The notes under the pieces are model-generated. The model ran no database searches and was not told the origin of the DNA. It saw only the letters and a program-made list of their open reading frames with translations. Source: Clostridia bacterium (GTDB lineage Bacteria > Bacillota > Clostridia > Christensenellales > Pumilibacteraceae). Taken from it: DNA of 64,000 nucleotides. The position numbers and the translations under genes were made by a program. The stretch lies in contig JAGAPD010000028.1 of NCBI GenBank assembly GCA_017623435.1, positions 1 through 64,000 on the forward strand. The letters run 5' to 3'. Shown here one piece after another: positions 12,434-50,009 of this stretch; the stretch's first letter is position 1; each line of letters opens with the position of its first letter.

Positions 12434-12465
12434 AAAAACCGACCACTACGTAGTGGTCGGTTTTT
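12434..12465. terminator. Perfect ACGT-centred bidirectional terminator
   Basis: A perfect 32-base palindrome, AAAAACCGACCACTAC followed by its complement, sits between the convergent glycosidase and upp genes. It has A and T tracts on both sides. Confidence 0.9.
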
Positions 12466-12482
12466 ATTATTTAACGATTTAA

Positions 12483-13121
12483 TTACTTCGTGCCGAAAAG
12501 TCTATCGCCTGCGTCGCCAAGGCCGGGAAGGATATAGCCGTTCTCGTTAAGGCATCTATCAAGCGTAGAAACGTAAACGTCCACGTCGGGATGCGTTTCA
12601 GCGAGCTTGGTCACGCCCTCGGGAGCGCCGATAATCGCCATAACCTTAATTTTCGTGCAACCGCGTTTTTTAAGAAGGTCAATCGCGTCGCAAGCACTAC
12701 CGCCCGTCGCGAGCATGGGATCAACGACGATAACGAATTTATCCGCAATTCCCTCGGGGAGCTTGCAGTAATATTCGCAGGGCTCGAGCGTTTCTTCGTT
12801 TCGATACATTCCGATATGACCAACGCGAGCGCTGGGGAAAAGCACGTGAACGCCGTTTACCATGCCAAGACCGGCACGGAGAATGGGCACGATAACTACG
12901 CTATTATCCACGATAACCTGTTGTACGCAGGTTTCAAGCGGAGTAGTTACCGTTTTTTCCTCGGTAGGAACGTCCTTAAAGCTTTCGTAAGTCATAAGCG
13001 TAGTAATTTCTTCGATAAGCTCACGAAACTCTTTCATACTCGTTTCTTTGTCGCGCAAAATGGCGATTTTGTGCTTAATGAGCGGATGATTGAAAATGGT
13101 AACGTTAGGATAATCTTTCAT
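12483..13121 (-). CDS. upp: Uracil phosphoribosyltransferase
   Basis: Converts uracil plus PRPP to UMP, the salvage entry to pyrimidine nucleotides. The 212-residue length is normal for this homodimeric enzyme. The PRPP loop [11 protein letters not shown], the ILRAGLGM segment and the C-terminal uracil-binding stretch [12 protein letters not shown] are all intact. The start has a GAGGAA ribosome site. It lies 16 bases after uraA on the same strand, so import and phosphoribosylation of uracil are co-expressed under the attenuator-like leader at 14587-14756. Confidence 0.97.
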
Positions 13122-13137: not shown

Positions 13138-14586
13138 TTATTCAGCGTCCGTGGTGGATGCAACTTCTTCGGTTGCTTCTGCGGTTTCTTCAGTAGCAGT
13201 TTCTTCAGTAGTTTCAGCGGTTTGAGCAGCAGCCTTCTTTGCAGCCTTGGAGCCCAAGAGGTTAACCAAGATGCCAAGGATAAGAGCGCAAGCAACGGCG
13301 GTAAGCGTTACTTTGCCAAGGCCAAGTGCAAGTCCGCCAACGCCAGCGATAAGGATAACCGAAACGGTGAAGAGGTTGTAGTTCTCGTTAAGGTCAACCT
13401 TCTGGATCATCTTAAGACCGGATACTGCGATGAATCCGTAAAGCGTAAAGCATACGCCACCCATTACGCAGGAAGGAATAGTAGCAAGCAAGGTTACGAA
13501 GGGAGCGAAGAACGCAGCAAGGATACAAATGATAGCAGCGGTGAAGATGGTTACAACGGATGCGTTGCGGGAAATTGCTACGCAACCAACCGATTCACCG
13601 TAAGTGGTGTTGGGGCAACCACCGAAGAACGCGCCCACCATCGAGCCTACACCGTCGCCAAGAAGAGTGCGGTGAAGACCGGGATCTTGGGTAAGGTCGT
13701 TGCCGATAATGGAAGAAATGTTCTTGTGGTCAGCAAGGTGCTCAGCGAATACTACGAACGCTACGGGAACGTAAGCAACGATTACGGTTGCGAAATATTC
13801 GCCGTTAAGTCCACCAAAGCCTTGGAAAGCCTCAATAAAGGTGAACGAGGGGAGCCATTGCATATTCTCAAAGAGAGAGAAGTTGATTACGATAAGCTCG
13901 GGTACGGATGCAACGTGACCGATTACGGTGAAGATGGTAGCTACGAGATAGCCTGCGCAAATACCGATAATGAAGGGAATAATCTTCATCATCTTCTTGC
14001 CGTAAACGGAGCAAACGATAACGGTTGCAAGCGTTACCAAACCGCAAATCAAGGAGATAAAGCCGGTGGTGTTCATAACGTATACACCGTCGGTTAATAC
14101 AGCGCCTTTTACGAGGTCGCCTACTGCGTTGCCTGCGAGCGAAAGACCGATAACAGCAACCGTAGGTCCGATAACTGCAGCGGGCATAAGCTTGTTGATC
14201 CACTTAACGCCTGCAAACTTAACGATAAGCGCGATTACTACGTAAACAAGACCAGCGAAGATAGCGCCGATGATGAGTCCGAGGTAGCCTGCTTGAGCGC
14301 TGGTTGCGCCTGCGAAGGCTGCGCACATCGAGCCGATAAATGCAAACGACGAGCCAAGGACCACGGGGCTTTTGAACTTCGTGAAAAGTAAGTACACGAT
14401 AGTTCCTACGCCTGCGCCGAGAAGGGCTGCCGACTGCGAAAGTTGAGCACCAGTTGCACCGTTAATGATTACGGGAACAACGATGGTTGCTGCCAAGATG
14501 GCAAGTACTTGTTGGAGTGCGAAAACGATGGTTTTCCAAAAACCAGGCTTGTCGCTGACTCCGTAAACGAGTCCGTTTTTGTTCAT
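13138..14586 (-). CDS. uraA: Uracil permease (NCS2/UraA family)
   Basis: Proton-coupled uracil importer of the nucleobase-ascorbate (NCS2) family, 482 residues from the ATG at complement 14586, which has a GGAGGA ribosome site at 14596-14601. The frame is open upstream but that region is leader RNA. It shows the usual 14-helix hydrophobic pattern, the VVLGSSFAFIG half-helix and the FAEHLADHKNISSIIGNDL substrate loop. The last 35 or so residues form an unusual acidic Thr/Glu/Ala-rich tail not needed in the family. It is co-transcribed with upp. Regulation is probably by transcription attenuation in the 170-base leader. Confidence 0.95.
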   Translation of the reverse strand: MNKNGLVYGVSDKPGFWKTIVFALQQVLAILAATIVVPVIINGATGAQLSQSAALLGAGVGTIVYLLFTKFKSPVVLGSSFAFIGSMCAAFAGATSAQAGYLGLIIGAIFAGLVYVVIALIVKFAGVKWINKLMPAAVIGPTVAVIGLSLAGNAVGDLVKGAVLTDGVYVMNTTGFISLICGLVTLATVIVCSVYGKKMMKIIPFIIGICAGYLVATIFTVIGHVASVPELIVINFSLFENMQWLPSFTFIEAFQGFGGLNGEYFATVIVAYVPVAFVVFAEHLADHKNISSIIGNDLTQDPGLHRTLLGDGVGSMVGAFFGGCPNTTYGESVGCVAISRNASVVTIFTAAIICILAAFFAPFVTLLATIPSCVMGGVCFTLYGFIAVSGLKMIQKVDLNENYNLFTVSVILIAGVGGLALGLGKVTLTAVACALILGILVNLLGSKAAKKAAAQTAETTEETATEETAEATEEVASTTDAE

Positions 14587-14629
14587 AAATATATGTCCTC
14601 CATATAAAAAATTACCTAAGTTATGGGCA

Positions 14630-14659
14630 CAAAAAAAGGAAGTCAATAAAAAACTTCCT
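14630..14659 (-). terminator. Attenuator terminator in the uraA leader
   Basis: On the minus strand, AGGAAGT (14659-14653), a 9-base loop and ACTTCCT (14643-14637) lead into seven or eight T. It begins four bases after the leader-peptide stop codon and ends about 45 bases before the uraA start. Confidence 0.8.
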
Positions 14660-14662
14660 GCG

Positions 14663-14737
14663 CTAAAAGATAGAAAAGGGAATAGTGATGCCATAATAAG
14701 AATAATAACTATTTTGAGCAATCACAATTTTTTCCAT
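14663..14737 (-). CDS. Putative 24-residue leader peptide of uraA-upp
   Basis: A short open frame starting MEKIVIAQNS and ending ITIPFSIF, with a strong ribosome site GGAGGG (14743-14748) five bases before its ATG. About half of the last 51 bases are U in the RNA, giving the run YYSYY and then Phe, Ile and Ser codons. The stop TAG is four bases before a terminator hairpin. This is the layout of the Escherichia coli pyrBI leader (pyrL). There, low UTP makes RNA polymerase pause in U-rich sequence so that the ribosome catches up and blocks the hairpin. A Tyr-sensing attenuator is the alternative but does not fit the genes controlled. Confidence 0.75.
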   Translation of the reverse strand: MEKIVIAQNSYYSYYGITIPFSIF

Positions 14738-14762
14738 AGTATCCCTCCGTGCTATCTTTCTC

Positions 14763-14791
14763 ATTATATCATACATCTAACTCTGAGGCAA
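14763..14791 (-). promoter_or_regulatory. Promoter of the uraA-upp operon
   Basis: On the minus strand, TTGCCT (14791-14786), a 17-base spacer and TATAAT (14768-14763). Transcription would start near 14756, giving a leader of about 170 bases that contains the peptide and terminator. Confidence 0.75.
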
Positions 14792-14828: not shown

Positions 14829-14858
14829 TTGTCACAATTTGTAACGGCGCGTTATAAT
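14829..14858 (+). promoter_or_regulatory. Promoter of the glycosyltransferase gene
   Basis: TTGTCA (14829-14834), an 18-base spacer and TATAAT (14853-14858). The expected start, near 14865, leaves only about 11 bases before the ATG at 14876, with at best a weak Shine-Dalgarno. Confidence 0.65.
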
Positions 14859-14875: not shown

Positions 14876-15952
14876 ATGATTATTACCGTTTATGCAATTT
14901 CAAAAAACGAGGAGAAATTCGTTTCTCGCTGGGCTGAGAGTATGCGTGAGGCGGATCACGTCGTAGTGCTTGATACGGGCTCAAGCGACGATACCGTAAA
15001 CGCACTTATTAAAGAGGGAGTTAAGGTAGAGTGCGCGAGTATAAATCCGTGGCGATTCGACGTGGCGCGTAACGAGTCGTTAAAGCTCGTTCCTGACGAA
15101 ACGGACGTATGCGTATGCACCGATTTGGATGAAATCTTCGAAAAAGGCTGGCGAAAAAAGCTGGAAAAATCGTGGGTAGCGGACGCTACGCAGGGGAGGT
15201 ATAAATACGTCTGGTCACACGAGGGAAAGCGCGAGGGCGTGCAGTTTTTGGGCGAAAAAATACACGTTAAGCAAGGGTTTAGCTGGGAAAAGCCCGTGCA
15301 CGAGGTTTTGCGCTACGACGGAGAAAAGCCACAAAAACAAGTTATGCTTGAGGGCGTAGTTTTGCATCATTACCCCGACGAGAGCAAGTCGCGCGGTAGT
15401 TATCTTGCTTTGTTAGAGCTTGCCGTTGCCGAAAATCCTAAGTGCGACAGGAGTATGCATTACCTTGGTAGGGAATATATGTTCAGGGGCGAATATCAAA
15501 AGGCGATTACCACGCTACTTCGCCACCTCTCTTTACCTACTGCTACTTGGAGTGACGAGCGAAGTGCGTCTATGCGCTATATCGCGCGTTGCTACGTGGC
15601 TCTTGATAAAAGGGCGGATGCGGAAAAATGGTTTCTTCGCGCCGTTGCTCAAACGCCCGATCTTCGAGAGGGCTACGTTGAATACGCGCAGTTTTTATTC
15701 GCGAAAAAGGACTATCACGGCGTTTTGTTTTTGCTCAAAAAAGCGCTTGAAATTACCAAACGGCCACTAACGTACGTGTCCGATCCGCTTTCTTGGGGTG
15801 CGCTTCCGTACGATTTGATGGCGCTGGCGAGCTATTACGTCAAGGACTACGAAAGCGCAGTTGAGTACGGTGAAAAAGCGGTCCGCCTTGACGACGAACC
15901 GCGACTTAAAAACAATCTTGAATTTTATAAAAGCAGTATTTTGCTTACTTAA
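14876..15952 (+). CDS. Family 2 glycosyltransferase with TPR-like C-terminus
   Basis: A 358-residue cytoplasmic GT2-type enzyme. The N-terminal domain has YAISKNEEKF, the nucleotide-sugar strand VVVLDTGSSDDT (29-40) and a DxD-like motif TDLDE (82-86). From about residue 190 the sequence turns into helical repeats resembling TPR (for example MRYIARCYVALDKRADAEKWFLRAVA). This architecture is common in Clostridia for enzymes that glycosylate proteins or surface glycans. It is a single-gene unit with its own promoter and overlaps the convergent AraC gene by eight bases at its 3' end. Donor and acceptor are unknown. Confidence 0.87.
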   Translation: MIITVYAISKNEEKFVSRWAESMREADHVVVLDTGSSDDTVNALIKEGVKVECASINPWRFDVARNESLKLVPDETDVCVCTDLDEIFEKGWRKKLEKSWVADATQGRYKYVWSHEGKREGVQFLGEKIHVKQGFSWEKPVHEVLRYDGEKPQKQVMLEGVVLHHYPDESKSRGSYLALLELAVAENPKCDRSMHYLGREYMFRGEYQKAITTLLRHLSLPTATWSDERSASMRYIARCYVALDKRADAEKWFLRAVAQTPDLREGYVEYAQFLFAKKDYHGVLFLLKKALEITKRPLTYVSDPLSWGALPYDLMALASYYVKDYESAVEYGEKAVRLDDEPRLKNNLEFYKSSILLT

Positions 15953-28067: not shown

Positions 28068-28167
28068 TTAGCGAAGGGTTCGTGACTGACGGAAATAGTG
28101 GTTTACCACGTGGGAGCGAAACCCGAGGGAGAATGGTCTCCGTTTTTTTGCCGACCGTCTGGGCGTA
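28068..28167 (+). ncRNA. ZTP (pfl) riboswitch upstream of purE
   Basis: Matches the pfl/ZTP riboswitch pattern: the purine-rich GGGTTCGTGACTGAC core (about 28076-28090), a CCACGTGGGAGCG helix and J region, and the late conserved block GCCGACCGTCTGGGC (28150-28164), which forms the pseudoknot and Z-nucleotide pocket. ZTP and ZMP accumulate when 10-formyl-THF is short, and the switch then turns on purine and folate genes. Here it controls an operon with two formyl-THF-using steps. The 3' end of the aptamer overlaps the following terminator, so ligand binding should prevent termination. Confidence 0.88.
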
Positions 28168-28204
28168 CTTAATCTTAAACGGAATAAGTACGCCTATCTT
28201 TTTT
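28162..28204 (+). terminator. Expression-platform terminator of the ZTP riboswitch
   Basis: GGCGTACTTA (28162-28171) pairs with TAAGTACGCC (28185-28194), followed by a U-rich run. The left arm shares its first bases with the aptamer's conserved CTGGGC block. Confidence 0.85.
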
Positions 28205-41499: not shown

Positions 41500-42714
41500 A
41501 TGAGAAAAACGGAACTTAAAAATTTAAGCACCCAATACTTCAAGGCGGTAGGAAACCCTTCCGCTAATTACTCCTTTTCTCTTATTGACTCTCTCGACTT
41601 AACGGGGGATAATTACGTGGTTTTACCCGGCTTTTGCGACGTGCACGTGCATTTTCGCGAGCCGGGATTTTCCTATAAGGAAACTATAAAAAGCGGTAGC
41701 CAAAGCGCTGCGCGGGGCGGATACACGGCGGTGTGCACTATGCCTAACCTCAGTCCCGTCCCTGACAGCGTAGAGCATATCGCGATTCAGCAAGATATTA
41801 TTGATCGTGACGCGGTAATTTCGGTGTATCCGTACGGCTCGATTACCGTGGAGCAAAAGGGCGAACAACTGGTCGATTTTGACAAAACGGCAGGGTACGT
41901 CATAGCCTATTCTGACGACGGCAAGGGAATTCAGAGCGAAGAAACGATGCTTGAGGCGATGACGAGAGCCAAGAAAAACGATAAAATGATAGTGGCGCAT
42001 TGTGAGGATAACAGCTTGCTTTTCGGCGGTTATATCCACGACGGGCAGTACGCAAAAGCGCACGGACATAGGGGTATTTGCTCGAAGAGTGAATACGGTC
42101 AGATTGAGCGCGATTTGGCGCTTGCAAAAAAGACGGGAGTCAAGTATCACGTGTGCCATATTTCCACAAAAGAGAGCGTCGCGCTTATTCGTAGAGCAAA
42201 GAGCGAGGGCGTGGACGTAACGTGCGAAACTGCACCTCACTACTTAACGATGGACGATAGCTATTTATTCGAGGACGGAAAAATGAAAATGAATCCGCCC
42301 CTTCGAGGTCAAGAGGACAGGCTCGCACTTATCGAGGGAATCGTGGACGGCACTATTGATATGATTGCAACCGACCACGCGCCCCACTCAAAAGAAGAAA
42401 AGAGCAGAGGCTTGGAAAAAAGCGCGTTTGGCGTAGTAGGGCTGGAAACGGCTTTCCCTGCGCTTTACACGCATTTAGTAAAGACGGGTATAATAAGTAT
42501 GGAAAAGTTAATTGACCTACTCGTGATTAGCCCAAGAAAGAGATTTAATATTCCCTTTGACGACGATTTCAGCGTGTGGGATTTGTCGCGCGAATTCGTA
42601 GTCAATCCCGAGGAATTTTTGAGTAAGGGAAGAGCCACGCCCTACGACGGACAAACGCTGTTTGGCGAAAACTTACTCACCGTAAAATCGGGCAAAATCG
42701 TATACAAGCGTTAA
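41500..42714 (+). CDS. pyrC: Dihydroorotase
   Basis: Zinc amidohydrolase that cyclises carbamoyl-aspartate to dihydroorotate. The 404-residue length fits the class I (PyrC-type II) bacterial family. The metal motif DVHVHFREPG (about 47-56), a later metal His in IVAHCEDNSL, CHISTKESV, CETAPHYL and the terminal metal Asp in IATDHAPHS are intact. It has a ribosome site AAAGGAG and starts the pyrimidine part of the block, 35 bases after fhs. No PyrR-type attenuator fits in so short a gap. Confidence 0.95.
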   Translation: MRKTELKNLSTQYFKAVGNPSANYSFSLIDSLDLTGDNYVVLPGFCDVHVHFREPGFSYKETIKSGSQSAARGGYTAVCTMPNLSPVPDSVEHIAIQQDIIDRDAVISVYPYGSITVEQKGEQLVDFDKTAGYVIAYSDDGKGIQSEETMLEAMTRAKKNDKMIVAHCEDNSLLFGGYIHDGQYAKAHGHRGICSKSEYGQIERDLALAKKTGVKYHVCHISTKESVALIRRAKSEGVDVTCETAPHYLTMDDSYLFEDGKMKMNPPLRGQEDRLALIEGIVDGTIDMIATDHAPHSKEEKSRGLEKSAFGVVGLETAFPALYTHLVKTGIISMEKLIDLLVISPRKRFNIPFDDDFSVWDLSREFVVNPEEFLSKGRATPYDGQTLFGENLLTVKSGKIVYKR

Positions 42715-42758
42715 AATTCGTAGAAAGTGAACATAGAAGTAAAACAGGAGAAAAATTT

Positions 42759-45700
42759 ATGGCAAAGAGAAAAGACTTAAAGAAAATTCTTATAATCGGC
42801 TCTGGCCCTATCGTAATCGGACAGGCGGCGGAGTTTGACTATGCCGGCACGCAGGCGTGCTTGGCGCTAAAAGAAGAGGGCTACGAAGTAGTGCTCGTTA
42901 ACTCCAACCCTGCAACGATAATGACGGACACGACTATTGCAGACAAGGTGTATATGGAACCGCTTACGCTTGAATACGTGGCGAAAATTCTCCGTTACGA
43001 GCGTCCCGACGCTATCGTGCCCGGTATCGGCGGACAAACCGGACTTAACCTTGCAATGCAACTTGAAAAGAAAGGCGTCTTAAAGGAGTGCCGTACTAAG
43101 TTGCTTGGAACGAGTAGCGAAAGTATCGAGCGAGCAGAGGACAGAGAGCTTTTCAAAGAGCTTTGTCAAATCATAGGCGAGCCCGTAATCCCCTCCGAAC
43201 TCACCTATTCTATTGAAGAGGCGAAAGAGGCGGCGAAGAAAATCGGCTACCCCGTAGTGCTCCGTCCTGCGTTTACGCTTGGCGGAACGGGCGGTGGCTT
43301 TGCCGATAACGAAGAAGAGCTTATCGAGATCGGTAACAACGCCTTCAAGCTTTCTCCCGTTCATCAGGTTCTTATCGAAAAGTCGGTTAAGGGCTATAAA
43401 GAAATCGAGTTCGAGGTAATGCGTGACTCGGCGGACAACGCCATCACCATTTGCGGTATGGAAAATATCGATCCCGTTGGCGTACACACGGGCGACTCTA
43501 TCGTCGTTGCTCCCATTATGACGCTTAACGACCACGACCTTAAAATGCTTAACGACAGCGCGATCAAGATTATTCGCGAGCTTAAAATCGAGGGTGGCTG
43601 TAACGTTCAGTTTGCGCTCAACCCCGATAGCAGCGAATATTACCTTATCGAAGTAAATCCCCGCGTATCCCGTTCGTCCGCGCTTGCATCCAAGGCGAGT
43701 GGATATCCCATCGCGCGCGTTACGGCAAAGATTGCAGTGGGTATGACGCTTGACGAAATTCCCCTTGCAGGCGGTACGGCTATTATCGAGCCTCGCCTCG
43801 ACTACGTCGTTGCTAAATTTCCCCGTTTCCCCTTTGATAAATTCACTTCCGCGTCCAACAAGCTGGGCACGCAAATGAAGGCAACGGGTGAAGTAATGGG
43901 TATCGGCTCGACGCTTAGCGAATGTATGCTCAAATCCGTTCGTTCGCTTGAAATCGGCGTATGTCACTTCTATATGCCCAAGTTCGACAACATGAGCAAC
44001 GAAGAACTTGAAAACTATCTCTACGAATTTAAGGACGACAACATTTTCGCCGTGACCGAGCTTCTCCGTCGTGGTTACACGGTTGAAAAGTTGCACGAAA
44101 TCACGAAAATCACCGCACTTTTCCTCGAAACGCTCCGTACCATAACCGAAATGGAAAAAATCCTCGTGGAAAAGACGATGGATATTAAGACGCTTGAGGA
44201 CGCTAAACGACTTGGCTTTGCGGATAAATATATTGCAAAGCTTTGGGGCGTAAACGAAATCGAGGTTTATAACCTCCGTCGCGCAAACGGCATCACGCCC
44301 GTGTTCAGAATGGTTGATACGCTCCATACGGGCGCGTACATTCCCTATCTTTACTCGTCCTATACCGGCGAAAACGAATCGCGCTTGACTGGAAAGAAAA
44401 AGGCAGTCGTTTTGGGCGCAGGTCCTATCCGTATCGGACAGGGCGTTGAGTTCGACTACTCGACCGTGCACGCCGTAACCACTATAAAGAAATCGGGTTA
44501 CGAGGCTATCATTATCAACAATAACCCCGAAACCGTTTCGACCGACTACACCACGAGCGACAAATTGTATTTTGAACCCCTTACGCCCGAGGACGTAATG
44601 AGCATTCTTGATTACGAACAGCCCGAAGGCGTTATCGCCTCGCTTGGCGGACAAACGGCAATCAACCTTGCCGAACCGCTCCGTAGTCGCGGAATTAAGA
44701 TTATCGGTACTGACTGCGACGCTATCGAGCGCGCTGAAAACCGTGACAGCTTTGAAAAAGTGCTTAAAAGCTTGGATATTCCTCAGCCCGAGGGCTACGC
44801 CGTTACCAAGATTGAGGACGGCGTAAAGGCGGCTAATAAAATCGGCTATCCCGTACTCGTTCGTCCCAGCTTCGTTTTGGGCGGTAGAGCAATGCAAATC
44901 GTCGCTAACGAGGATCAGCTTCGCAGATACCTTAAAACTGCGGTTGAGATTGACGAGGACAAGCCCGTTTTGGTTGATAAGTACATTATCGGCAAGGAAG
45001 TTGAGGTTGACGCTATTTGCGACGGCCGTGACGTGTTCGTACCCGGTATTATGGAGCTGGTTGAGCGAACGGGTATTCACTCGGGCGACTCGATAAGCGT
45101 ATATCCCTCGTTCAGTATTTCTAATAAGGTAAAAGGCACGATTTTGCAGTACGCTAAAAAGTTAGGTCTTGGCATCGGCATTATCGGACTTTATAACATT
45201 CAGTTTATCGTTGACAACAACGACAAGGTTTACATTATCGAGGTTAACCCCCGTTCGTCGCGTACCGTACCCTTCCTTTCCAAGGCGACTGGATATAGCC
45301 TTGCGGATATCGCGACCGAGGTTATTATGGGTAAGAGTTTAAAGGAGCAGGGAATTTTCGATATTTACCCCGAAGAGAAGAAGAGATGGTACGTAAAAGT
45401 TCCCGTGTTCTCGTTTAATAAAATCAGAGGACTTGACGCGTACCTTTCGCCCGAAATGAAGTCAACGGGCGAGGCAATCGGTTACGACGACAAGCTTAAC
45501 CGTGCGCTTTATAAGGCGTTGCAAGCGTCGGGAATGCACCTTCAAAACTACGGAACGGTGTTCGCGACCATTGCGGACAAGGATAAGCAAGAGGCGTTGC
45601 CCCTCCTTCGCCGCTTCTACGATCTTGGCTTTAATATCGTAGCGACCGCAGGTACTGCTAAATTCCTTAAAAAGAACGATATCAGAACGCACGCCGTTAA

Positions 45701-45932
45701 GAAGATTAGTGACGGTAGCGACGAGATTCGTGAAACCATTTTGGGCGGAAACGTGGCTTACATTATCAACACCAGCGAGGTTGGCGCTATCGGAAAGATG
45801 AGCGACGGCTACGAAATCAGAAAGTACGCTACTGAAAATAATATCAATATCTTTACCTCGCTTGATACCGTAAAGGTACTCCTTAACGTACTTGACGAGA
45901 TCACGCTCCGTATTTCTACTATCGACGCTTAA
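42759..45932 (+). CDS. carB: Carbamoyl phosphate synthase large subunit
   Basis: Makes carbamoyl phosphate from bicarbonate, two ATP and ammonia. The 1057 residues contain two homologous ATP-grasp synthetase halves (first half with KILIIGSGPIVIGQAAEFDYAGTQA, second with GAGPIRIGQGVEFDYSTVHA) and a C-terminal MGS-like allosteric domain (about 930-1057). The small subunit CarA, which provides ammonia from glutamine and is normally encoded immediately upstream, is not in the window; pyrC lies there instead. CarA may be elsewhere, or the enzyme may use free ammonia. Confidence 0.96.
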   Translation: MAKRKDLKKILIIGSGPIVIGQAAEFDYAGTQACLALKEEGYEVVLVNSNPATIMTDTTIADKVYMEPLTLEYVAKILRYERPDAIVPGIGGQTGLNLAMQLEKKGVLKECRTKLLGTSSESIERAEDRELFKELCQIIGEPVIPSELTYSIEEAKEAAKKIGYPVVLRPAFTLGGTGGGFADNEEELIEIGNNAFKLSPVHQVLIEKSVKGYKEIEFEVMRDSADNAITICGMENIDPVGVHTGDSIVVAPIMTLNDHDLKMLNDSAIKIIRELKIEGGCNVQFALNPDSSEYYLIEVNPRVSRSSALASKASGYPIARVTAKIAVGMTLDEIPLAGGTAIIEPRLDYVVAKFPRFPFDKFTSASNKLGTQMKATGEVMGIGSTLSECMLKSVRSLEIGVCHFYMPKFDNMSNEELENYLYEFKDDNIFAVTELLRRGYTVEKLHEITKITALFLETLRTITEMEKILVEKTMDIKTLEDAKRLGFADKYIAKLWGVNEIEVYNLRRANGITPVFRMVDTLHTGAYIPYLYSSYTGENESRLTGKKKAVVLGAGPIRIGQGVEFDYSTVHAVTTIKKSGYEAIIINNNPETVSTDYTTSDKLYFEPLTPEDVMSILDYEQPEGVIASLGGQTAINLAEPLRSRGIKIIGTDCDAIERAENRDSFEKVLKSLDIPQPEGYAVTKIEDGVKAANKIGYPVLVRPSFVLGGRAMQIVANEDQLRRYLKTAVEIDEDKPVLVDKYIIGKEVEVDAICDGRDVFVPGIMELVERTGIHSGDSISVYPSFSISNKVKGTILQYAKKLGLGIGIIGLYNIQFIVDNNDKVYIIEVNPRSSRTVPFLSKATGYSLADIATEVIMGKSLKEQGIFDIYPEEKKRWYVKVPVFSFNKIRGLDAYLSPEMKSTGEAIGYDDKLNRALYKALQASGMHLQNYGTVFATIADKDKQEALPLLRRFYDLGFNIVATAGTAKFLKKNDIRTHAVKKISDGSDEIRETILGGNVAYIINTSEVGAIGKMSDGYEIRKYATENNINIFTSLDTVKVLLNVLDEITLRISTIDA

Positions 45933-45941
45933 GGAGAGGAA

Positions 45942-46679
45942 ATGAAGCAGTCAATTTTTACGATAAAAACTAATACGCCTCTTACCGATAACGTTTACGA
46001 AATGACGCTTACGGGCGATACGAGTGATATCACCGCGCCCGGTCAATTCGTTAATATCCTTATCGAAGGGCTTTTTCTGCGCCGTCCCATTTCCGTGTGC
46101 GACTGCGAGGGCGATACGCTCACGCTCGTATACAAGGTAGTGGGCAAGGGTACGGAAAAAATGGCAAGCATGCAGGAGGGCCAAGCGCTTGACGTTTTGA
46201 CCGGTCTTGGCAACGGCTACGACCTATCTAAAGCAGGAAAGCACGCGCTTTTGCTTGGTGGTGGCGTTGGCGTACCTCCCCTTTATATGCTCGCAAAAAA
46301 GCTGATTGAAAACGAAACGACGGTAGACGTGGTGCTTGGTTTTAACACGAAGAGCGAAATTTTCTACGAAGAACAGTTCAAAAAGCTGGGCGCAAACGTA
46401 ACCGTTACGACCGTTGACGGCAGTTATGGAGAAAAGGGCTTCGTTACCAGCGTAATTGATAATATCGACTACACGCACTTCTATACTTGCGGTCCTGAGC
46501 CTATGCTTAAAGCGGTACATAAGGCTACTAAAACGAGCGGTCAGCTTTCGTTTGAGGAGCGTATGGGCTGTGGCTTTGGCGCTTGTATGGGTTGCTCGTG
46601 CAAGACGCTTACGGGCAACAAGAGAATATGCAAGGAAGGTCCGGTGCTTAGCAAGGAGGAAATCTTATGGAAAGATTAA
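45942..46679 (+). CDS. pyrK: Dihydroorotate dehydrogenase electron transfer subunit
   Basis: FAD and [2Fe-2S] subunit that passes electrons from PyrD to NAD. The 245 residues contain an FAD/NAD reductase fold (GQFVNILIEG, LLLGGGVGVPPLYMLAK, FYTCGPEPMLKAV) and a C-terminal iron-sulfur motif MGCGFGACMGCSCKT followed by a fourth Cys in KRICKEGPVL. It overlaps pyrD by thirteen bases, as expected for subunits of one heterotetramer. Confidence 0.95.
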   Translation: MKQSIFTIKTNTPLTDNVYEMTLTGDTSDITAPGQFVNILIEGLFLRRPISVCDCEGDTLTLVYKVVGKGTEKMASMQEGQALDVLTGLGNGYDLSKAGKHALLLGGGVGVPPLYMLAKKLIENETTVDVVLGFNTKSEIFYEEQFKKLGANVTVTTVDGSYGEKGFVTSVIDNIDYTHFYTCGPEPMLKAVHKATKTSGQLSFEERMGCGFGACMGCSCKTLTGNKRICKEGPVLSKEEILWKD

Positions 46680-47578
46680 AAGTCAATCTTTGCGGAATTG
46701 AGCTTGATAATCCCGTAATTCCTGCGAGCGGTACTTTTGGCTTTGGCTACGAATTTGCCGAGCTTTACGATATCAACCTTTTGGGTACTTTTTCCTTTAA
46801 GGGGACTACGCGTGACGCACGCTTTGGTAACCCCACGCCCCGAATTGCAGAGTGCTACGCAGGTATGATCAACGCGGTAGGCTTGCAAAACCCGGGAGTA
46901 GATAAGGTTATTGAAGAGGAATTGCCCAAGCTTAAAAAATGCTTTAACAAAAAGGTTATGGCAAACGTGAGCGGATTTTCTATTGAGGACTACGCTTACA
47001 CCTGCGAAAGACTGGACGCAATCGATCAGGTAGGCTGGCTTGAGGTCAACGTCAGCTGTCCTAACGTACACGGTGGCGGAATGAGCTTTGGTACTAACCC
47101 TTCCGCCGCGGCAGAGGTCACGAAAGCGGTAAAAGCAGTGACGAAAAAGCCCGTCATCGTAAAGCTTTCGCCCAACGTTACGGATATCGTTTCTATCGCG
47201 AAAGCGTGCGAGCAAGCAGGCGCGGACGGAATCAGCCTTATCAACACTATGCTTGGAATGAGAATAAACCTTCGCACGCGCAAGCCCGTTATTGCTAATA
47301 AAATGGGCGGATTTTCCGGCCCTGCCATTTTCCCCGTAGCGGTGCGAATGGTTTATCAGGTAGCAAACGCAGTTTCCGTGCCCGTAGTAGGTATGGGTGG
47401 CGTTTCGACGGCAGAGGACGTTATTGAAATGATGCTTGCAGGTGCTACGGCGGTTGAGGTAGGCGCGGCGAATTTGGTTAATCCTTACGCTTGCCGTGAT
47501 ATTATCGCTGATCTTCCTGCAGTTATGGACAAATACGGAATTAAGAATTTAAGTGAAATCATAGGAGGAGTAAAATAA
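46667..47578 (+). CDS. pyrD: Dihydroorotate dehydrogenase B, catalytic subunit
   Basis: Class 1B, NAD-linked dihydroorotate dehydrogenase, a FMN TIM barrel of 303 residues. [25 protein letters not shown]-like N-terminus, [20 protein letters not shown], the class 1 active-site Cys in [12 protein letters not shown] and C-terminal [27 protein letters not shown] are all visible in pieces along the chain. It needs PyrK, whose gene it overlaps. An AAGGAGG ribosome site lies inside pyrK. Confidence 0.96.
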
Positions 47579-47579
47579 A

Positions 47580-48278
47580 ATGGGAAAGGACGTCATTATC
47601 GCTTGTGACTTTGACAGCGCGCAAAAAACCTTTGACTTTTTGGATAAGTTCACGGGCAAAAAACCTTTTGTAAAAATCGGAATGGAGCTTTTTTACGCCG
47701 AAGGACCGAGTATCGTTCGCGAGATTAAAAAACGCGGTCACAAGATTTTTCTTGATCTTAAGCTTCACGATATTCCCAACACGGTTAAAAAGTCGATGGC
47801 AGTTTTATCCCGTCTTGACGTAGATATGACCAACCTTCACGCAGGCGGTACGAAGAGAATGATGGAGGCGGCTATCGAAGGACTTACCCGTCCCGACGGC
47901 ACTCGTCCTATTCTTATTGCCGTAACCCAGCTTACTTCTACTGACGAAGAGAGCATGAAAAAAGACTTGCTTATCGATCAGCCCATTGACAAGGTGGTTA
48001 TGCATTACGCTAAAAACGCGGCTGACGCAGGTCTTGACGGCGTAGTTTGCTCGCCCCTTGAGGCAGGTAAGGTTCACGCAACTTGTGGCAATAACTTCGT
48101 TACGGTTACCCCCGGCGTGCGCTTTGCCGACGGTGACGTAGGTGACCAAAAGCGCGTTATGACGCCTGCGCAGGCAAAAGAAATCGGCTCGGATTATATC
48201 GTAGTAGGCAGACCGATTACGGCGGCGGAAGATCCCGTTGCGGCGTACGAGCGTTGCGTAAATGAATTCGTAGGTTAA
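47580..48278 (+). CDS. pyrF: Orotidine 5'-phosphate decarboxylase
   Basis: Last step to UMP. The 232-residue TIM barrel has the catalytic [10 protein letters not shown] motif (Lys and Asp of the catalytic tetrad), [22 protein letters not shown]-like phosphate loop and [10 protein letters not shown] at the C-terminus. The GGAGG ribosome site lies at the end of pyrD, one base before the pyrF ATG. It is of the short, group I-type enzyme also found in Bacillus. Confidence 0.95.
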
Positions 48279-48292
48279 TAAGGAGATATATT

Positions 48293-48931
48293 ATGAAAAA
48301 TATTGAAAAAATTATTGCAAAAGATTTATTGTCTATTAAAGCAGTTTTCTTCCGCCCCGAAGAGCCCTTTACCTGGGCAAGCGGAATCAAAAGCCCCGTT
48401 TACTGTGATAACCGCCTTACCCTTACCGCGCCCAGCGTTAGATGCGACGTTGAAAACGGTCTTGCCGAGGTTATCAAGGAAAATTACCCTGACGTAGAAG
48501 TACTTATGGGTACGTCCACCGCAGGTATTGCACACGCGGCAATCACCGCTCATATTATGGACCTTCCTATGGGCTACGTTCGTTCGGGCGCAAAGGACCA
48601 CGGAAGACAAAACCAGATTGAGGGCAAGCTTGAAAAAGGTCAAAAAGTCGTCGTAGTTGAGGACCTTATCTCGACTGGCGGTAGCGTTTTGGAGGTAGTA
48701 AACGTTCTTCGTGAGGCAGGAGCGGAAGTTCTTGGTATCGCAAGTATCTTTACCTACGGAATGAAGAAGGGTATTGATCGCCTTAACGAGGCAAACGTTA
48801 AAAACGTTTCGCTCACTAACTTCGACTGCATTGCCGAGGTTGCGGCTGAAGAGGGCTACATTAAGCCCGAGGACGTAGCGCGCCTTATTAAGTTCAGAAA
48901 CAACCCCTCCGACGAGAGCTGGATTAAGTAA
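48293..48931 (+). CDS. pyrE: Orotate phosphoribosyltransferase
   Basis: Adds PRPP to orotate to give OMP, the substrate of the PyrF encoded just upstream. The 212 residues carry [19 protein letters not shown] near the N-terminus and the PRPP-binding loop [14 protein letters not shown], with [19 protein letters not shown] between them. It follows pyrF after 14 bases with an AAGGAGA site, and pyrB begins two bases after its stop. Confidence 0.95.
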
Positions 48932-48932
48932 T

Positions 48933-50009
48933 ATGAGAAGTTTAATTGACATCACCGATTTTACGACGGCTGAGCTTGACGAGCTGATCAGCGTTGCGCT
49001 CGATATTATCGCACGCCCCGACGAGTACGCGAATAAATGCCGTGGCAAAAAGCTTGCTACGCTTTTCTTCGAGCCGAGCACGCGCACGAGGCTTAGCTTT
49101 GAGGCGGCTATGTACGAGCTTGGCGGTAACGTTATCGGCTTTTCCGAGGCAAGCAGTTCGTCCGCGGCAAAGGGCGAGAGCGTAGCGGACACGGCGAAAA
49201 TTATCAGTCAGTACGCTGATATTATCGCTATGCGCCACCCCAAAGAGGGCGCACCCTACGTTGCGGCTAAAAACGCGACTATCCCCGTAATCAACGCAGG
49301 CGACGGCGGGCATTGTCACCCCACGCAAACGCTTGCCGACCTACTTACTATCGTTCGCGAAAAGGGTAGACTTAACAACCTCACGGTAGGTATGTGTGGA
49401 GATTTGAAGTACGGAAGGACGGTACATTCGCTTATCGCGGCGCTTGCACGCTACGAAAATATCAACGTCGTACTTATTTCGCCCGACGAGCTTCGTATTC
49501 CCGATTACGTTAAGGACGATATTATCGTTAAAAATAAAATGAGTTACAGCGAAACGGCGTCGCTTGAAGAGGCAATTCCTTCGCTTGACGTATTGTATAT
49601 GACCAGAATTCAGCGTGAGCGTTTTGCGGATAAGGACGAGTACGAGAGATTAAAGGATAGTTACGTGCTTACGCCCGAAAAGCTTACGACGGCAAAGGAA
49701 GATATGTGTATTCTTCATCCGTTACCGCGCGTAAACGAAATCAGCGTGCGCGTGGATGAAGACAAGAGAGCAAGTTATTTCCGTCAGGCACTTAACGGAA
49801 AGTATATGCGTATGGCGCTTATTCTCAAGCTTTTGGGTGAGGCAAACACCCCCAAGGAGCAAAGAGAGGGCGAAGGGCTGGTTTACGACGAGATCAAATG
49901 CGAAAATCCGCGTTGCATCACCTCAACCGAGCAAGAGCTTACGCATATTTTCCGCAAGGACGGAAATGGAGAAATGCGTTGCATTTATTGCGAAGCATTG
50001 AAGAAGTAA
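48933..50009 (+). CDS. pyrB: Aspartate carbamoyltransferase with fused PyrI-like zinc tail
   Basis: Condenses carbamoyl phosphate and aspartate. The catalytic domain (about 1-310) has the carbamoyl phosphate loop [13 protein letters not shown] (about 44-56), [23 protein letters not shown] and HPLPRVNEI. Unlike the 300-residue Bacillus enzyme it continues to residue 358 with Cys323-x4-Cys328-x21-Cys350-x2-Cys353 (CENPRC ... CIYC). This matches the zinc domain of the regulatory chain PyrI (C-x4-C-x23-C-x2-C in Escherichia coli). The nucleotide-binding part of PyrI is absent, so the tail is probably structural. Confidence 0.93.

Follow-up and report, generated by a model that had tools for sequence, protein, structure and literature searches.

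A leader of the pyrL type, probably a translation-coupled attenuator, precedes uraA–upp in Clostridia

In a 64,000-nucleotide stretch of DNA from a Clostridia bacterium (the window), the genes uraA and upp follow a short leader, probably one that couples transcription attenuation to translation in the manner of pyrBI/pyrL and that regulates the uptake and salvage of uracil. Leaders of this form, hereafter frame-type leaders, occur before uraA in gut Clostridia, often in genomes without PyrR. At the level of sequence, the analysis establishes the short frame, its Shine–Dalgarno (SD) site, the placement of its stop at a terminator, the lack of a supported RNA antiterminator, an excess of predicted pairing between the SD and a pyrimidine tract at the frame's end, and the absence of PyrR from the window's genome. 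That UTP is the signal is inferred from the anatomy, from the function of the genes and from the replacement of PyrR. Translated-leader UTP sensing is the textbook enterobacterial mechanism, and the textbook regulator of Bacillota is PyrR. If Clostridia do possess a widespread and repeatedly gained attenuator like pyrL, leader translation must still be able to control termination in them.

Organization of the uraA leader

The leader meets two sequence criteria of the pyrL/pyrBI type: a short frame with a strong SD abuts a terminator before a pyrimidine gene, and a U-rich or pyrimidine-rich tract lies just before that terminator. The first-pass annotation of this DNA had described a promoter, a strong ribosome site, a 24-codon frame with its stop at an intrinsic terminator and then uraA–upp, between positions 14791 and 14587 of the minus strand; this arrangement stands, and its coordinates were right. 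The features, all on the minus strand, are as follows.

14763..14791 (-), predicted sigma-A promoter TTGCCT-N17-TATAAT with an extended -10 TG (consensus scan, 10/12 matches)
14742..14760 (-), 5′ strand of helix P1, GAAAGAUAG + GGAGGGA, which includes the SD GGAGGG (minimum-free-energy fold, duplex and partition-function tests)
14748-14743 (-), SD GGAGGG of the leader frame (sequence; SD energy -10.0 kcal/mol)
14663..14737 (-), leader frame encoding MEKIVIAQNSYYSYYGITIPFSIF, 24 codons, ATG at 14737 and stop TAG at 14665-14663 (sequence; scan for SD and stop distance)
14665..14681 (-), 3′ strand of helix P1, UCCCUUU-U-CUAUCUUUU, the pyrimidine tract at the end of the leader frame (fold, duplex, composition)
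14637..14659 (-), intrinsic terminator, a 7-8 bp stem and U run (predicted, -8.7 kcal/mol)
13138..14586 (-), uraA, NCS2 uracil permease family, ATG at 14586 (NCBIfam TIGR00801, 3.4e-83; PRK10720 uracil permease, 5.5e-83)
12483..13121 (-), upp, uracil phosphoribosyltransferase (NCBIfam equivalogs above cut-off)
12434..12465 (-), terminator closing uraA–upp, terminator-like on both strands by sequence (predicted)

Both of the uraA matches lie under the curated cut-offs. The arms of the leader terminator are 5′ AGGAAGU and 3′ ACUUCCU, and the stop precedes the hairpin by 3 nt (about 4 nt to the first G-C pair). The last 48 nt of the frame are 52% U and 71% pyrimidine, so the tract described earlier as half U is indeed that in the window; in relatives the description does not always hold, the tract there being pyrimidine-rich (U 0.39, C about 0.22). 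The 3′ strand of P1 is both an anti-SD and a stretch that demands UTP and CTP, the response to UTP being inferred.

A near-consensus divergent promoter, TTGTCA-18-TATAAT (14829-14858, plus strand), lies close upstream of the uraA promoter and serves a glycosyltransferase-like gene at 14876-15952. The de novo pyrimidine genes of the window genome sit behind purine genes and a ZTP riboswitch: a ZMP/ZTP riboswitch (RF01750, 53 bits; 28072-28171, plus strand) lies upstream of a purine-gene run that directly precedes pyrC-carB-pyrK-pyrD-pyrF-pyrE-pyrB (41500-50009), as if in one transcription unit. No carA was seen between pyrC and carB in the window. The PyrB protein (48933-50009, plus strand; 358 amino acids) ends in a zinc-binding tail resembling that of PyrI (CENPRC...CIYC), and pyrB and pyrI appear to be fused; the PyrB and PyrI parts are separate matches in some relatives (L222, L224 and L226).

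Recurrence and specificity of the leader

Leaders upstream of uraA orthologues were gathered within the family, within the order and from a set of species-level genomes. A terminator lay close to uraA in 98 distinct leaders, of which 33 were PyrR-type, by motif, and 65 were not. A scan for frames 18-45 codons long that had a good SD and a stop between -20 and +12 nt from the hairpin found the architecture in 23 of the 65 non-PyrR leaders, against an expectation of 1.37 when the dinucleotides of the pre-terminator DNA were shuffled, and in none of the 33 PyrR-type leaders (0.38 expected). Adding by-eye members (weaker hairpins, GTG start) and later genomes to the automated members gave a working set of 31 distinct leaders; the leader L041 was doubtful and was left out.

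These 31 leaders span several families, and their peptides, of 19-37 residues, are unrelated between clades. Close pairs keep the frame despite whole-codon changes in length and several amino-acid changes (for example, L189 and L388). The expectation that aligned leaders would retain frame, SD and stop-at-hairpin placement while the peptides drift was thus borne out across the order, and the absence of a conserved short frame in relatives, which would have refuted the reading, was not encountered. Automated search detected an intrinsic terminator in 30 of the 31. The median distance from stop to stem was 2 nt (30 leaders), compared with mostly 10-30 nt behind ordinary genes of the same genomes, a comparison with some circularity, since a near stop was among the criteria of selection.

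On the uraA tree the leader type requires 10 changes, at least 7 of these changes being forced by well-supported branches. The frame-type leader thus appears, from its distribution on this tree, to have been often gained and lost, and a single origin is ruled out.

A scan of terminators in the window genome, which did not presuppose uraA, covered 1.76 Mb (about 95%). Among 1,337 terminator-like sites, 17 had any such frame, and in that part of the genome the uraA leader was the only one of the 17 to combine the frame with a gene downstream, an end rich in pyrimidines and a sealed SD. Of 123 terminators in the window and 15 further stretches, only 3 had the architecture, two of the three being uraA leaders. 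The shuffle expectation (23/65 against 1.37) and these scans rule out a chance frame. All collected cases precede uraA because they were collected through uraA; in other genomes we did not find a frame-type leader on a de novo pyr operon except where the operon follows uraA–upp. In one such genome (L040) the genes behind the leader run uraA-upp-pyrC-carB-pyrK-pyrD-pyrF-pyrE-pyrB; since the pyr genes follow uraA–upp there, that leader may also govern the de novo pathway.

The leaders come from metagenome-assembled genomes, the relatives are not fully independent and some members were picked by eye. Promoters and terminators are predicted, folds are at equilibrium and there are no expression data.

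Other leader types were seen before uraA. Three leaders (L087, L108 and L112) carry the motif GGCAGATGCGTyrGGT upstream of uraA, without an Rfam match, possibly another type of leader element. Five from one genus (L180, L181 and L385-L387) are conserved, with a terminator and a well-conserved short frame (MKTLKVLHIEIFGIR in L180 and L181), a conservation unlike the drifting peptides of the main class. A further five (L044, L045, L051, L053 and L088) share a conserved short leader, TAGGAAATTAAGGGGAAwCCTrTTTTCAAAA, with no terminator, possibly reflecting start-site or translational control.

Relation to PyrR

The first-pass annotation saw neither pyrR nor a PyrR anti-antiterminator, and wider searches agree with it. 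The window leader has no match to the PyrR-binding RNA element (RF00515) even at E 10, and the best match in the window genome reaches 28 bits against a gathering threshold of 54. No PyrR gene was found in this genome, which is 94% complete: matches to the phosphoribosyltransferase domain are other proteins, and the best E value in a search for PyrR with NF003549 was 1.6e-6. A PyrR attenuator is ruled out, given the lack of an RF00515 element in the leader and of a PyrR gene in the genome. Rfam also gave no match to a known riboswitch or T-box in the window leader.

Leader type and PyrR can be compared most closely within one genus (g51, 20 species), where the frame-type uraA leader occurs in all 11 species that have uraA and lack PyrR, and the PyrR-type leader in all 8 species with PyrR. 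There is one clear sister pair for the switch of leader type (L264 and L265). Independent PyrR and leader switches are few, as the uraA of most PyrR-bearing species on the tree falls in a distant clade. A strict rule by which frame-type leaders occur only without PyrR is ruled out by five genomes that have both, namely G388 and, by pyr-operon loci, those of L041, L049, L054 and L056; because of them, the frame-type leader cannot be called a strict substitute for PyrR. A PyrR-type leader on the pyrC operon occurs together with a frame-type leader on uraA in the L049, L054 and L129 genomes, and the genomes of L041 and L056 have pyrR next to pyrC.

Pairing between the SD and the pyrimidine tract

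A predicted helix between the SD and the pyrimidine tract had been missed by the first-pass annotation. Across the 31 leaders, pairing of the SD with the frame's 3′ half has a mean probability of 0.74, compared with 0.385 when the frame is shuffled (Wilcoxon p=2e-7), and SD-tract pairing had been no selection criterion for this set. At 133 ordinary uraA starts the values are 0.23 and 0.26 (shuffled). The window helix P1 combines GAAAGAUAG/CUAUCUUUU with GGAGGGA/UCCCUUU and gives a pairing probability of 0.98, against 0.46 shuffled. The helix is weak or absent in L052, L054, L213 and L264, and no loop or sequence within it is conserved across frame-type leaders.

The same test on gammaproteobacterial pyrL leaders gave 1.0 for E. 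coli, 1.0 for Klebsiella, 0.99 for Proteus, 0.79 for Photobacterium and 0.90 for Aeromonas, with shuffles of these five at 0.21-0.48; here too the helix has no conserved loop. In E. coli CGGGAGGA pairs with UCUUCCCG, within the U-rich part of the leader, and the Klebsiella helix survives a C-to-U change, with a G-U pair as the result. The seven amino-acid leader peptides of E. coli (L402-L408) ranged from 0 to 0.78, six of them no higher than 0.63, and the average for 34 E. coli genes was 0.17. We know of no report of SD pairing in pyrBI, and an older mention in the pyrBI literature is not excluded. We suggest only tentatively, at somewhat short of even confidence, that the SD-tract helix is a general functional component, hitherto overlooked, of the pyrimidine attenuators of two phyla, making ribosome loading, and not ribosome catch-up, the step timed by UTP. 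If this is true, a gate timed by loading would let pyrimidine attenuators operate under runaway transcription.

Proposed mechanism and alternative explanations

That the UTP level sets polymerase speed, that the helix is a kinetic gate and that a ribosome blocks this hairpin are inferences only, made without expression data. When UTP (possibly also CTP) is plentiful, polymerase would pass quickly through the pyrimidine-rich end of the frame, the finished tract would pair back on the leader SD, no ribosome would load, the terminator would fold and uraA–upp would remain untranscribed. When pyrimidine nucleotides are scarce, polymerase would be slow in the tract and a ribosome could initiate before the SD is sealed; on reaching the stop, 3 nt before the hairpin, it would cover the 5′ arm and permit read-through into uraA–upp. 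In E. coli, the efficiency of a terminator behind a translated frame fell from about 90% to under 10% when the stop was shifted from 28 nt to 5 nt ahead of it (PMC4824070), and pyrL relies on polymerase pausing over a U-rich template in a UTP-dependent way (PMC10135430). Transcription in Bacillota is believed to be of the runaway kind (PMC13323073), and catch-up by a ribosome would then be rare unless pausing were strong. In this model the SD would be sealed only after polymerase has made the tract. Such a gate would still operate with polymerase normally running ahead of the ribosomes. Pairing of the tract with the 5′ arm of the terminator is not above shuffles (Fisher p=0.69), so an RNA antiterminator formed from the two has no signal; with none supported, the ribosome is the only candidate antiterminator, its occlusion of the hairpin being inferred.

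The composition of the tract counts against the attenuator reading, in that the tract is pyrimidine-rich and not strictly U-rich. Averaged over the class, pyrimidine rises from 0.47 in the first codons to 0.62 at the frame end (p=1.6e-5) and U from 0.30 to 0.39 (p=8e-5), and in GC-rich relatives C substitutes for part of the tract U (r=0.65, C with GC). A tract that is rich in both C and U, that matches the SD and in which C replaces U in this way could exist only to pair with the purine-rich SD, and the leader would then sense the overall capacity for translation or initiation, or the state of growth, and not UTP. We regard this alternative as unlikely, though it deserves to be kept in view: uraA alone carries the element in the window genome, the element replaces PyrR within one genus, and the matching tract of E. 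coli pyrL belongs to the region known to sense UTP (PMC10135430). In another reading, some regulatory protein or a small ligand stabilises the SD-tract helix and represses leader translation, with termination following from the absence of ribosomes. Helices that hide an SD are typical targets of such regulators, and PyrR is comparable at a different RNA; but neither a conserved loop or sequence across leaders nor an Rfam match in the window leader was found, and the gammaproteobacterial pyrL leaders have the same helix without a conserved loop, which leaves this proposal improbable.

Less weight still can be given to Rho-dependent termination on the pyrimidine-rich untranslated leader, with ribosomes shielding it against Rho. 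The window genome encodes Rho, and in those Bacillota where transcription is runaway Rho has a preference for pyrimidine-rich RNA (PMC13323073); against this very improbable route stand the shortness of the tract and the intrinsic terminator, 3 nt past the stop in the window and found in 30 of 31 members. The idea to which we give almost no credence is that the peptide senses an amino acid, whether tyrosine, as the first-pass annotation allowed from the YYSYY run of the window peptide, or Phe or Ser, which occur in all 26 leader peptides compared. The tyrosine version founders on the presence of Tyr in only 14 of the 26; Phe and Ser are at no more than 1.2-1.5 times the base-composition expectation, no codon runs are common to the peptides, no mutually exclusive antiterminator is supported and the downstream gene is a uracil transporter. 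With Tyr so often missing, no control-codon run and no mutually exclusive hairpins, sensing of tyrosine or another amino acid can be ruled out.

Comparison with known systems

The translation-coupled attenuator that we favour has in common with E. coli pyrL (pyrBI) a strong SD, a short frame with a pyrimidine- or U-rich end, an intrinsic terminator that a ribosome can occlude, a pyrimidine gene downstream and, by prediction, the SD-tract pairing (P 1.0 in E. coli). It differs in phylum, in gene (uraA–upp) and in peptide; no pause hairpin was identified, and the response to UTP is inferred. The clostridial frame usually stops just before the hairpin, whereas that of E. coli pyrL runs through it and those of Klebsiella and Photobacterium stop in the loop.

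The PyrR-dependent attenuators of Bacillota (RF00515) act on the same genes, uraA of sister genomes among them, but the window leader has no PyrR loop and no supported antiterminator or anti-antiterminator, and its genome has no PyrR gene. Amino-acid attenuators (trp, his and leu; the hisS leaders of bacilli, PMC2965389) likewise place a short translated frame before a terminator; unlike them, the clostridial leader has neither control codons nor mutually exclusive hairpins, and the SD is not strongly sequestered in six of the seven E. coli amino-acid leaders (the exception being leuL, 0.78). The same two genes respond to the same presumed signal in E. coli, where upp-uraA is controlled by UTP-sensitive reiterative transcription and start-site selection. 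The predicted start region of the window leader, GAGAAAGA, has no U run, and control would lie at the terminator, unlike in E. coli upp-uraA.

To our knowledge, as far as we have checked, a pyrimidine leader with its frame at the terminator has so far been known mainly from E. coli relatives. We saw no similarity to enterobacterial pyrL in peptide or gene context, and convergence on a pyrL-like attenuator, rather than common descent, would be the simpler reading of the sequences compared here. The predicted SD-tract helix, common to these leaders and E. coli pyrL, provides for a mechanism that can do without tight coupling.
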